Shown: positions 3,565 through 27,667 of the stretch, one piece after another
How positions within the stretch are numbered: position 1 is the stretch's first letter
How the letters are laid out: each line of letters starts with the position of its first letter
Assembly: GCA_028223895.1 (NCBI GenBank)
Contig: JAOIVE010000007.1
Coordinates: 1-50,893, forward strand
Direction of reading: 5' to 3'
Source of the DNA: Rickettsiales bacterium
GTDB lineage: Bacteria > Pseudomonadota > Alphaproteobacteria > Rickettsiales > UBA6187
DNA length: 50,893 nucleotides
Translations under genes and position numbers: made by a program
Notes under the pieces: model-generated
The model's database searches: none
What the model saw: the letters and a program-made list of their open reading frames with translations, nothing else
What the model was told of the DNA's origin: nothing

Positions 3565-5502
3565 TTACAAAGGAGCCGCCGCTTCTTCTTCTATTTTATC
3601 TAGTAATGAATTTAAAGCAAGTATTTCTTGATTCTTAGAGCCTAAACGTCTTACTGACACTGTCCTTTGCTCAACTTCTCTTGCTCCAACTGCAATTATA
3701 ATTGGAACTTTATTTACAGAATGCTGGCGAATTTTATAGCTTATTTTTTCATTTTCTAAATTTAATTCTGCCCTGATACCGCGAGCCTGAAGTTCAGCAA
3801 CAATTTCTTTTGCATAATCATCAGCTTCGCTAATAACCGTTGCCACTGCAACCTGAACAGGAGATAGCCATAAAGGAAATTTACCCTCATATTGCTCAAT
3901 TAATATACCAATAAAGCGCTCAAAAGAGCCTAATATTGCTCTGTGAAGCATAACAGGGCGATGTTTATTACTATCAGCACCAATATAAGTTGCATCAAGT
4001 CTTTCAGGAAGAACAAAGTCAACCTGTATAGTACCACATTGCCAGTCACGGCCAATGGCATCGGTTAGTACAAATTCCAGTTTAGGGCCGTAAAAAGCAC
4101 CTTCTCCAGGATTTAATGTATATTCCAGCCCAGTTGCCTCAACCGCTTCTTTTAAGGAGTTTTCTGCTTTATCCCATATTGCATCATCGCCAGCGCGGAC
4201 TTCCGGACGGTCAGAAAATTTAACTCTAACCTCTTCAAAACCTAAATCTTTATATACACTAAGCAGAAGATCGCAGAATGCTTTGGTTTCAGAAGTTATC
4301 TGGTCTTCTGTGCAGAAAATATGTGCGTCATCCTGAGTAAAGCCGCGCACACGCATAAGGCCGTGCAAAGCGCCGGATGGTTCATTGCGATGGCATGAGC
4401 CAAATTCTGCCATGCGCAAAGGCAGGTCGCGATAGCTTTTAAGGCCCTGATTAAATATCTGTACGTGACAAGGGCAGTTCATCGGTTTTATCGCAAGAGT
4501 TTTGTCTTCTGAATCACTTGTGAACATATTTTCACGGAATTTATCCCAATGCCCTGATTTTTCCCATAAAATCCTGTCTACCAATATAGGAGTTTTAACT
4601 TCCTTATAATTGGCTTTTTGTAGTTTGTTGCGAATATATTGCTCGAGCAGACGATATAAAGTCCACCCTTTCTCATGCCAGAAAACCTGACCAACAGCCT
4701 CTTCTTGTATATGGAATAACTCCAGACTTTTGCCTAATTTGCGATGATCGCGTTTTTCTGCTTCTTCAAGCATATTTAGATATTTCTTAAGCTCTTTTTC
4801 TGTATTCCAGGCAGTTCCATAAATACGCTGTAACATCTCATTGCGAGAATCACCTCGCCAATATGCGCCTGCAACCTTCATGAGTTTAAACGCTTTTGGA
4901 CTAGCCGTATTTGGAGCATGTGGCCCACGGCATAAATCAATAAAATCACCCTGTCTATAAAGGCTTATAGTTTCTCCCTGAGGAATTGCTTCGATCAGCT
5001 CAGCCTTGTATTTTTCGCCCATATCACTGAAAAATTTTATAGCATCTTCACGCTTCATAGTTTCACGAGTAATAGGCTCTGCGCGTTTTACAATCTCTTG
5101 CATTTTTGCTTCGATATTTTCAAGATCGTCAGTAGAAAAAGGCTCTTTGCGTGCAAAATCATAATAAAAACCATTTTCAATTGAAGGGCCGATTGTAACT
5201 TGTGTATCCGGGTATAGTTCCTTCACAGCTTCTGCTAATATGTGAGCTGTGTCGTGACGTATAATCTCCAGCCCTTCTTCATTTTTACCTGTTATTATAC
5301 GAATATCGGCATCTTCTTTTATGGGTCTTGAAAGATCAAGCAGCTCTGAATTTACCTCTATACATATAGCAACTTTTGCCAAACCTGCACCAATATCAGA
5401 GGCAATATCAAAACCGGTTATGCCAGCTTGGTATTCTCTTACATTTCCATCGGGTAGTTTTATAGATATATTTTTAGAAGCTATTTCTGCCACTTGTGTC
5501 AT
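3565..5502 (-). CDS. thrS: threonyl-tRNA synthetase
   Basis: Class II synthetase charging tRNA-Thr; 645 residues from the ATG at 5502, close to the 642 of E. coli. Domain order: N-terminal TGS domain (opening [16 protein letters not shown]), editing domain with the [11 protein letters not shown] motif, the catalytic core with class II motif 2 (region [11 protein letters not shown]) and zinc ligands (NCPCHVQ and downstream His residues), motif 3 ([15 protein letters not shown]), and a C-terminal anticodon-binding domain. An upstream in-frame TTG at 5517 would add five residues; the ATG is preferred. The gene is 53 bp before infC, the classic thrS-infC order. Its leader holds a hairpin-forming repeat listed separately. 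Confidence 0.97.
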
Positions 5503-5523
5503 CTCACATTCACTCAATTTTTA

Positions 5524-5590
5524 GTATCTTTCATTTTCCTTTATAGTTCGTCAGTTGCTGACAGCCATATAATTGGCAGAACATTAAAGG
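5524..5590. repeat. diverged copy of the palindromic repeat found at 26686-26963, in the thrS leader
   Basis: The first 33 bases (5524-5556) match the start of the tandem repeat array (beginning AGTATCTTTCATTT, including its flank at 26678) with about three substitutions. The rest diverges but keeps a palindromic layout: outer arms CCTTTA (5538-5543) and TAAAGG (5585-5590), and a perfect inner hairpin GTCAG-TTG-CTGAC at 5550-5562. It lies between the glycosyltransferase stop (5605) and thrS start (5502), so it would be in the thrS 5' leader if the two are co-transcribed. Confidence 0.55.
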
Positions 5591-5604: not shown

Positions 5605-6423
5605 TCAATTGTTTTTGCCATCTGAAGCCAGTTTTGCTTTATATAATTCTCTGGCCTTTGCAAGGCGTAATGTGCGGGCAAAAACATAAATAATGCTTTC
5701 AATAAAACCATCTATACCTAATAAAAAATAACGACGCAGAAAATATGCCTTAAAAAATGTGAAAAATGGTTCAACTATAATGCGCAAAGATGATGGTATT
5801 TTTTTGCGCTTTACTAAATCTTCGGCCTGCATTGTTGTATAGAAATTTATTTTGTTAACAGCATGTGAAAATGAACGAAAACAGCGATGAGCCACAATAT
5901 TTTTTAATATACCGGCTTTTGCCTTTGGATCATTTAAGGTTACAGAATCATGGACGGTGCTATCCTTAAATCCGGCATGGTTTTTGTTATATAGGCGTAT
6001 AGGTTCGTTGTCGGGCGCAAATCTGCCCGGCTTATCAGCAAATCTGCCTTGAATTTTTATGCGCAATCTATAAGCGTGATATTTTATTAATTCAGGCTCT
6101 TCAAAAAGTTCAAAAAGTTCATCCCTTAGCTTTTCACTTACAGATTCATCAGCGTCAAGATTAAGTAGCCAGTCTTCAGAGCATAGGGTTTCTCCATAGA
6201 TCTTTTGAGGGCCATATCCTTTCCACTCATGAAAAACTACCTTTGCGCCAAGTTCATCACTGATTTTTACCGTTTTGTCATCGCTTCCACTATCTATAAC
6301 AATAACTTCCTGCGCCCAGTCTTTAACGCTGTTTATGGTGTGGATAATGCGATCTTCTTCATTTTTTGCAATTATAAAGACAGAGATTGGTAATTTGCTC
6401 TTACTTTGCATTTTCTTTCTCAT
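5605..6423 (-). CDS. family 2 glycosyltransferase, WaaE/KdtX-like
   Basis: A 272-residue GT-A fold glycosyltransferase resembling the LPS-core beta-1,4-glucosyltransferase WaaE/KdtX group. The N-terminus has the nucleotide-sugar fold (ISVFIIAKNEEDRI, then VIVIDSGSDDKT), and the metal-binding Asp-x-Asp is at residues 90-92 (NLDADE). The C-terminal third contains amphipathic or hydrophobic segments near FFKAYFLRRYFLLGIDGF that suggest inner-membrane association. The start overlaps the end of the upstream GT4 gene by 23 bp; an ATG four codons later would shorten this to 11 bp. Together the two genes look like a small envelope-polysaccharide or LPS-core operon. Donor and acceptor sugars are not predictable. 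Confidence 0.88.
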   Translation of the reverse strand: MRKKMQSKSKLPISVFIIAKNEEDRIIHTINSVKDWAQEVIVIDSGSDDKTVKISDELGAKVVFHEWKGYGPQKIYGETLCSEDWLLNLDADESVSEKLRDELFELFEEPELIKYHAYRLRIKIQGRFADKPGRFAPDNEPIRLYNKNHAGFKDSTVHDSVTLNDPKAKAGILKNIVAHRCFRSFSHAVNKINFYTTMQAEDLVKRKKIPSSLRIIVEPFFTFFKAYFLRRYFLLGIDGFIESIIYVFARTLRLAKARELYKAKLASDGKNN

Positions 6424-25976: not shown

Positions 25977-26582
25977 CTAAAGTTTTTCACCATGCTTGGC
26001 AAGATAAGATGCTACTCCTTCAGGAGATGCATTCATTGCTTCATCACCTTGATTCCAGCCTGCGGGGCAAACCTCACCATGCTCTTCATGGAAAATTAAG
26101 GTATCAACCATGCGCAAAGCTTCATCAATATTACGACCCAAAGGAAGATCGTTAACAAGCTGGTGACGAACAATGCCATCTTTATCAATAACAAATGTAC
26201 CGCGTAATGCAACACCTGCATCTTCAATCAGTACATCATAGTCTCTTGCTATAGATTTTGTTAAATCAGCAACTAGTGGATATTGAACATTACCAATACC
26301 GCCATTTTTTATTTCAGTATTTTTCCATGCCAGATGACTGAAATGTGAATCAACACTGACACCAATAACCTCAGCCCCACGCTTCTGAAAAGCCTTTAGA
26401 CGACTGTTAAAAGCTAAAAGCTCTGAAGGACAAACAAACGTGAAATCAAGAGGATAGAAAAATATAACGCCAATCTTGCCACTTAAATATCCTTTAAGGT
26501 TAAACTTATCGTTTATTTCGTTATTTGGCATTACAGCAGATGCCGTAAAATCAGGTGCTGACTTACCTACAAGTACGCTCAT
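25977..26582 (-). CDS. 2-Cys peroxiredoxin (AhpC/Prx1 type)
   Basis: Thiol peroxidase that reduces hydrogen peroxide and organic peroxides. From the ATG at 26582 it has 201 residues with peroxidatic Cys51 in DFTFVCPSELLAF and resolving Cys172 in GEVCPAGWNQGD, typical of the Prx1/AhpC subfamily. The frame opens 16 codons earlier (26630), but those residues do not fit the family; MSVLVGKSAPDF is the normal start and has AAGAGAGA upstream. Thioredoxin (reduced by the adjacent trxB product) is the likely electron donor. Upstream, 26583-26685 has no gene and 26686-26963 is a repeat array. Confidence 0.96.
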   Translation of the reverse strand: MSVLVGKSAPDFTASAVMPNNEINDKFNLKGYLSGKIGVIFFYPLDFTFVCPSELLAFNSRLKAFQKRGAEVIGVSVDSHFSHLAWKNTEIKNGGIGNVQYPLVADLTKSIARDYDVLIEDAGVALRGTFVIDKDGIVRHQLVNDLPLGRNIDEALRMVDTLIFHEEHGEVCPAGWNQGDEAMNASPEGVASYLAKHGEKL

Positions 26583-26685
26583 AATAGTCTCTCTTAAATA
26601 TAAATGATAATAACTTACTAAATTAGTCATGATTTATGCGTTGCAATAAGCATAATGTCAACCCCAATTTTACTATAGTATCTTT

Positions 26686-26963
26686 CATTTGCATTTATAC
26701 TTCGTCAGTCTTCAGCTCATGTAGTTTATCTACATGTCGCTTCGACCTCCTATTATAAAAGCAAAGCAAAGACACTATATGTTTTTAAGGCATTTGCATT
26801 TATACTTCGTCGATCGGCAGATCATGTGGTTCCCTACGCGTCGCTTCGACCTCCTATTATAAAAGCAAAGCAAAGACACTATATGTTTTTAAGGCATTTG
26901 CATTTATACTTCACCAGCCATCAGCTTGTGTAGTTTCGTTTGCGCGTCGCGATAAAAGCAAAG
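26686..26963. repeat. tandem array of three palindromic units (105, 104 and about 69 bp)
   Basis: Units start at 26686, 26791 and 26895, each with CATTTGCATTTATACTTC. The first two share identical ends (from GTCGCTTCGACCTCC to GTTTTTAAGG) and differ in the middle; the third lacks about 35 bp. Each unit is itself palindromic. In unit 1, TTTGCATTTATA (26688-26699) pairs with TATAAAAGCAAA (26754-26765) at 11 of 12 positions, and CATGTAG (26718-26724) pairs perfectly with CTACATG (26730-26736). No ORF lies within. It occupies most of the 386-bp gap between the GNAT-like gene and the peroxiredoxin gene. Confidence 0.9.
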
Positions 26964-26968
26964 ATTAT

Positions 26969-27667
26969 CTATATTTCCTGATTTGGCGAAACCACAAGCA
27001 GTTCTGTTGATATGCTTTTATATAAATGGTCATTTTGTATCAAAGAAGATTTGCATTTGTTGATCTTTATGCCTGCGCGATCAAAAAAGCTCTCATAATG
27101 TTTGATCTGTTTACCTGTTCCATAAATCAATAGTAAGTTGGAATTTGTTTGCAGGAAGCTTTTATAAAGCCCTTTTAATATATTAATAGGGCACTGGCTT
27201 TCACGCAGTTCAGGGCGTACTATTAATCCTCTAAATTCAATTATGCGAGCTGGGTCGGGCAAAGACATGATATTATTTCTTTTTAAAGCCTCCTGAATAT
27301 ATTTTGAATCTTCATCACTAGGTGATATAAGCTGACCACCGCCAACAACCTGCTGGCCTCGCAACGATAAAAGTATCTTGGATTTTTTTGAACCAATATA
27401 GCTAAATGCGTCAAGCCCGTAGTCAATTTGATAGCAGCTTGAAACAAGGGCTGTATATTGCTGGATTAAAAATGGCTCAGTAGCCCATTTATATGATATT
27501 TGATTGATTGAAATGTGAGATCTTATGTCGTCTAATATCTTGTTTTTAGCATTGCTCGTCTTGTTTAGAAGCTTATTCGCAGATAAGAAATTTATATCAT
27601 TTTTAAGTTCTTCAGCAGAAACAGATTTATTTAATTCATTTATGATTACCTGATCGTTACCTATCAT
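26969..27667 (-). CDS. GNAT-fold protein, autoinducer-synthase/FeeM-like
   Basis: A 232-residue protein resembling the GNAT superfamily, in the LuxI/FeeM-like group of N-acyl-amino-acid or acyl-homoserine lactone synthases. Cues are CYQIDYGLDAFSYIG (position of the LuxI substrate-loop Asp), RGQQVVGGGQLISPSDED, and ARIIEFRGLIVRPELRESQCP, where an acidic residue and Arg precede the acyl-CoA/ACP-binding loop. About 70 N-terminal residues are hydrophilic and not recognised. Similarity is by eye only; an ordinary acetyltransferase is equally possible. GGGGTAAGTC precedes the ATG. It is a single gene between hisZ and the repeat array. A TTAA-N7-TTAA site lies about 100 bp upstream. Confidence 0.55.
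   Translation of the reverse strand: MIGNDQVIINELNKSVSAEELKNDINFLSANKLLNKTSNAKNKILDDIRSHISINQISYKWATEPFLIQQYTALVSSCYQIDYGLDAFSYIGSKKSKILLSLRGQQVVGGGQLISPSDEDSKYIQEALKRNNIMSLPDPARIIEFRGLIVRPELRESQCPINILKGLYKSFLQTNSNLLLIYGTGKQIKHYESFFDRAGIKINKCKSSLIQNDHLYKSISTELLVVSPNQEI

Follow-up and report, generated by a model that had tools for sequence, protein, structure and literature searches.

The tandem array found in the window (the whole 50,893-nucleotide stretch of a Rickettsiales contig that was analysed) most probably represents a non-autonomous palindromic element of the MITE type, present in one complete copy and two partial ones and belonging to a superfamily that extends over the Pseudomonadota and includes RPE-2, ERIC and probably RPE-1. 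A reading made earlier from the sequence alone had proposed a structured, mobile element at this place. Dispersed copies, covarying stems, and one orthologous site that is occupied or empty depending on the species bore this proposal out.

Structure of the array

Three units lie head to tail between a gene and an ORF of the minus strand, spaced by 105 and 104 bases (Table 1), as the sequence-only reading had described; Tandem Repeats Finder gave the array a score of 377 at a period of 104. The limits had been set at 26686 and 26963, and both needed correction. Position 26686 reflects the phase of the tandem repeat, whereas the palindrome itself begins 12 bases before, at 26674, as shown by the pairing of the left outer arm TATAGTATCTTT (26674-26685) with AAAGACACTATA (26768-26779); these two segments are the start and the end of the complete element. 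Unit 3 extends to about 26973, and has an internal deletion. The 12-bp outer stem formerly attributed to every unit exists in unit 1, but not in units 2 and 3, where TGTTTTTAAGG occupies the position of the left outer arm. The 7-bp apical stem CATGTAG/CTACATG is perfect in unit 1 and degraded to CATGTGG/CTACGCG in unit 2, in line with the earlier description of an inner stem partly kept in the second unit. Finally, the right end of unit 3, which reads TATAG on the minus strand, provides the TAG stop codon of the ORF 26969-27667.

Three covariance models were used, for all of which E-values are rough: R1, made with 16 copies found in the order, R2, made with 91 copies, and R3, a model of a 126-bp subtype built from relatives in the order and the class. 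Unit 1 scored 116 bits with R1 (E 1.2e-20) in the plus orientation of the model, against 39 bits on the other strand. With R3, which was built without copies from the source genome, it scored 78.9 bits (E 1.1e-15).

Table 1. Features of the window, in order of position.
Feature	Position	Strand	Basis
Left-half copy, between ORFs 3565-5517 and 5605-6423	5521..5556	.	91% over 34 bases, E 2.7e-7
AhpC/TSA peroxiredoxin gene, downstream of the array, same strand	25977..26630	-	PF00578, E 1.8e-38
Unit 1, complete 106-bp palindrome TATAG...CTATA	26674..26779	- (predicted folding strand, RPE-2 coding orientation)	R1 match
Left outer arm TATAGTATCTTT of unit 1	26674..26685	.	Sequence and fold; outside the limits first proposed
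Apical stem-loop CATGTAG-TTTAT-CTACATG of unit 1	26718..26736	.	Sequence and fold
Junction TGTTTTTAAGG of units 1 and 2, replacing the left outer arm	26780..26790	.	Sequence, array comparison
Unit 2, partial (without left outer arm), apical stem degraded	26791..26883	-	R1, 75.2 bits, E 6.1e-12
Unit 3, partial, internal deletion (~15 bases)	26895..26973	-	Sequence, ORF list, repeat and genome comparison
232-aa ORF without Pfam match; the array starts at its stop codon	26969..27667	-	ORF list, Pfam scan

Copies in the source genome and in the phylum

The proposal of a mobile element had been staked beforehand on finding further copies, and these were present in the source genome (1.45 Mb in 93 contigs, 68% complete) as arrays, solo copies and half copies. 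The whole array matched at E 3e-143, the other copies at E 3e-68 to 3e-4. Contig C8 carries a five-unit array with the same 104-base period, contig C56 a two-unit array and contig C6 a copy and a stub, while solo copies are found on contigs C4, C10, C14 and C16. A half copy of the window (Table 1) lies between ORFs which, by eye, resemble a threonyl-tRNA synthetase (3565-5517) and a glycosyltransferase (5605-6423). A sequence pattern that proved too strict gave no match in genome contigs, and a plasmid search with a GC-rich relative yielded nothing useful.

In the order, R1 gave matches at E≤0.01 in 54 of 344 genomes, when about 3 are expected by chance, and in the class at E≤0.001 in 20 of 385, with less than one false genome expected. 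The phylum was scanned with R2, and 57 of 398 genomes had matches at E≤0.001 (again, less than one false genome expected). Although few candidates were scored in this last scan, many genomes had at least 5 to 9 copies among them. MAGs make up most of the genomes, and the wide scans give minimum copy numbers.

One member of the family (L084:2489-2589) belongs to Candidatus Thiodiazotropha endolucinida, a gammaproteobacterial symbiont. Loci L081 and L085 are near-identical contigs filed under two MAGs from one pond sample; therefore one of them is probably misbinned, or the species are close.

Covariation of the stems and folding strand

Covariation among copies, the other check on which the earlier proposal depended, was very strong. 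It was first measured on a MAFFT alignment that was not fitted to the structure, with pairs taken from one relative: 82.5% of the cells were paired, compared to 34-46% with the partner slid, and both sides had changed in 79 cells versus 24 in shuffles. With 90 distinct copies, in an alignment that leans to the model, 84.2% were paired and both sides had changed in 715 cells versus 213 in shuffles. Arms can be wholly different between lineages and yet paired, as in TTTTCAATAATGA/TCATTATTGAAAA and TTTATTTACGC/GCGTAAATAAA, and the apical stem covaries as well (GTAG/CTAC, GTAT/ATAC, GTGC/GCAC). The conserved core reads, in order, CGTY, a short covarying helix, GCTCAYGTA, a loop, TACRCTYCGC, the helix partner and CCT.

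Mismatches at the paired positions differ between strands. On the plus strand, A.C was counted 244 times versus 73 for G.T, in copies that are related, so that the counts are not independent; after leaving out the four pairs where mismatches concentrate, the counts were 107 and 58. A.C on the plus strand corresponds to G.U pairs on the minus strand, and the likeliest interpretation is that the minus strand must fold. The RPE-2 peptides are read from the same strand.

Rfam had no match in the window, and the only one over the element, there or in relatives, was Phe_leader at E 0.8, far below threshold. Near two elements of UBA6187, a sub-threshold match to Rfam sRNA-Xcc1 was noticed (L025:1899-1985, minus strand, 40.5 bits for a gathering value of 53, E 3e-4).

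Relation to RPE-2 and RPE-1

Protein HMMs run on six-frame translations gave only weak RPE2 signals, which prompted a test of RPE-2 at the DNA level. R1, built without any Rickettsia copy, found 16 of the 23 RPE-2 loci tested end to end and at their exact coordinates (E 1.8e-5 to 0.06, for 84 kb of sequence). RPE-2 (NCBIfam TIGR03774) is 105-107 bp long, ends in TATAGT...ACTATA, and has the same fold, core and relative strand as the element studied here. It differs in being often translated inside Rickettsia ORFs, whereas the present copies are intergenic and partly tandem, and their peptide is not conserved: the RPE-2 peptide had no match in the source genome (G000) or in G002. G000 belongs to another family of the order than g16, the genus with dozens of RPE-1 and RPE-2 copies.

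RPE-1 (TIGR01045) has a CGTC..TCACGTA-loop-TACGC..CCT core with the same strand sense, but it is longer (~146 bp) and its match with R3 was weak (E 0.06). Two of its four copies scored above all shape-preserving shuffles, and the other two near the top. In the source genome, nothing above cut-off was found for RPE-1.

Relation to ERIC and other repeats

All 8 ERIC loci (from Escherichia, Klebsiella, Pantoea and Rahnella) were found by R3 at their exact ends, and on one strand only, the sense one. This run was done with filters off; the best E was 5.3e-7 and the weakest 0.16, and one locus is counted twice among the eight, from two strains. The 106-bp models R1 and R2 gave no match on ERIC with default filters. 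Since such a model might favour any similarly shaped palindrome, a simplified covariance scorer was written, and each ERIC was compared to shuffles keeping its fold. The ERIC scores were reached by 3 of 1050 shuffles, and the antisense strand scored 33-48 units lower. YPAL, RU-3 and strong unrelated hairpins had negative scores with the same scorer. ERIC was not found by a sequence-only HMM and local profile alignment, which had no power here, as the window copy was barely found either. The link to ERIC and RPE-1 comes from profiles that include structure.

ERIC/IRU/RU-1 elements, found in Enterobacterales and Vibrio, are also imperfect palindromes with TA ends. With the 126-bp subtype they have in common a CGTT..GCCT frame and an apical TCA/CTCC internal loop (GAG/UGA on the other strand). 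They differ by their arms and by their length, 127 bp, the tip being ~20 bases longer than in the 106-bp window copy; such a long tip is present in relatives of the same order.

We consider it rather unlikely that the likeness to ERIC and RPE-1 results from convergence among mobile hairpins of ~100-130 bases, a situation that would leave the kinship of the window family with RPE-2 untouched. The arms without common sequence, the failure of sequence-only profiles and the E of 0.06 of RPE-1 with R3 speak for convergence. It is opposed by an ERIC match that is strand-specific in 8 of 8 loci and stands above shape-preserving shuffles, and by the negative scores of YPAL, RU-3 and strong hairpins.

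Compared by description, the CGTC-tagged REP repeats (PMC3733652; RPE-4 and RPE-6 are among them) are likewise palindromes of proteobacteria, frequent in alphaproteobacteria and tagged with CGTC, but they measure 20-40 bp and bear the tag at one end, whereas CGTY lies inside the palindrome here. ERIC and RPE are given as separate families in PMC2229807, PMC10969869 and PMC2267715, and a search for the two together, with subscription papers outside its range, returned no work joining them.

Ends and insertion sites

In G002, copies with nearly identical arms are found at unrelated sites, and their flanks diverge at TATAG...CTATA. TA was present at the left end of 58 of 91 copies, at the right end of 60 and at both ends of 45, for a background of 7%. 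An orthologous site was occupied in G046 and empty in G258 and G259; these sites are strongly diverged, and a TA duplication is not readable in them. Terminal inverted repeats and dispersed copies are thus both present, as in MITEs, for which no coding capacity is needed. Transposases of the IS630 type are the usual TA-targeting kind. DDE_3 of this type, the only transposase sought, was absent from 4 of 6 copy-bearing genomes (G000, G027, G453 and G814, with many copies each), and it was rejected as a partner on account of this inconsistent presence.

About nine tenths of the copies lie between genes, in many cases at a gene's 3′ end (median distance 20 bases). Their orientation relative to co-directional genes is even (28:27), gene calls being simple ORFs in both cases. 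Copies also occur between divergent and between convergent genes. A cis-acting RNA element under selection in the transcript and not mobile, such as a 3′ end hairpin, a determinant of mRNA stability or an attenuator, would account for the frequent position just past stop codons, and ERIC hairpins do alter mRNA stability in Yersinia in an orientation-dependent manner (PMC2229807). The even orientation, the copies between divergent or convergent genes and the near-identical copies at non-orthologous sites argue against it, and we hold this explanation to be improbable. The proximity of stop codons is probably a side effect of where insertions are tolerated.

Two observations concern particular sites. 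Copies or arrays directly adjoin tRNA genes at L118, L101, L072 and L149. At L253 (G027:C6:69500-70300), the site occupied in G046, an unrelated insertion with a repeated AAAATGGACAAGCTCGG(T/G)ATGAC unit was found; it is perhaps a shared insertion hot spot.

A possible mode of spread

ERIC serves for strain typing all over the world, and RPEs are textbook selfish DNA inside bacterial genes. To our knowledge, the two families are usually treated as unrelated, and we know of no mechanism of movement for either. For a mobile palindrome of the kind described above, the following steps can be proposed. The element has a tip with a constant core, and two pairs of arms that may vary in sequence provided that both sides still pair. 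One strand, the minus one here, would fold, as RNA or as single-stranded DNA, and a cellular factor would recognise the core, including the conserved G.A/A.G internal loop beside the apical stem. The target of a new copy would be a TA, in most cases intergenic and frequently directly at a gene's 3′ end. Local tandem duplication with breakpoints in the left arm and the right flank would afterwards generate head-to-tail units, which would then decay. Recognition of a folded strand fits arms that change freely better than a transposase reading fixed end sequences does. The element may also affect neighbouring mRNAs, as ERIC does (PMC2229807), but this would be secondary. Counting against a mobile element related to ERIC and RPE-1 are the lack of an accompanying transposase in the IS630-type search, empty sites too diverged to prove a TA duplication, the even orientation, and a link that depends on structure-including profiles.

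A broader idea, which we put forward tentatively and judge slightly less probable than its contrary, is that RPE-1, RPE-2, ERIC and many unnamed repeats of alpha- and gammaproteobacteria form one ancient superfamily of mobile hairpins, with a fixed core and arms evolving by paired changes, and that a widely conserved cellular factor moves them by recognising their folded single strand. If this were true, the search for the mobilising factor would become comparative: which gene is common to all genomes with fresh copies?

Origin of the tandem units

In all five arrays examined (those of the window, C8, C6, C56, and G168, from another family), the whole palindrome is present only in the first unit, in plus orientation, and other sequence replaces the left outer arm in the later ones. 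In C56, what replaces it is flank sequence, which is found again after the last unit. The missing left arm fits a local duplication with breakpoints inside the left arm and in the right flank, and the polarity, seen in these few arrays, is suggestive of the same process. The window and C8 arrays have similar junctions, which suggests a shared descent. As for the tandem arrangement, it resembles the outcome of local duplication.

The diverging centres had been taken as a sign of mobility by the sequence-only reading. This argument needs qualifying: because only the first unit of each array is a complete palindrome, the centres and the tandem layout are best understood as the result of a local duplication after which units 2 and 3 decayed. 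Simple slippage, discarded in that same reading, was considered as plain slippage of ordinary sequence and again rejected. An ordinary tandem duplication without wider meaning is very improbable for the array as a whole. The explanation holds for units 2 and 3 alone, which indeed have the appearance of local duplicates joined through foreign sequence, but unit 1 is a member of a dispersed family whose stems covary. Least probable of all, an integron attC or CRISPR-like array would match the head-to-tail spacing, conserved outer parts and variable centres, but was rejected in view of the absence of cassettes and spacers, a repeat that is itself the entire palindrome, and mostly solo copies, in addition to the lack of an Rfam match in the window.

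Another arrangement was seen in gammaproteobacterial members (L270, L274 and L276), which are inverted pairs ~8 bases apart with a CCGAAGG-like centre, unlike the head-to-tail arrays described here.
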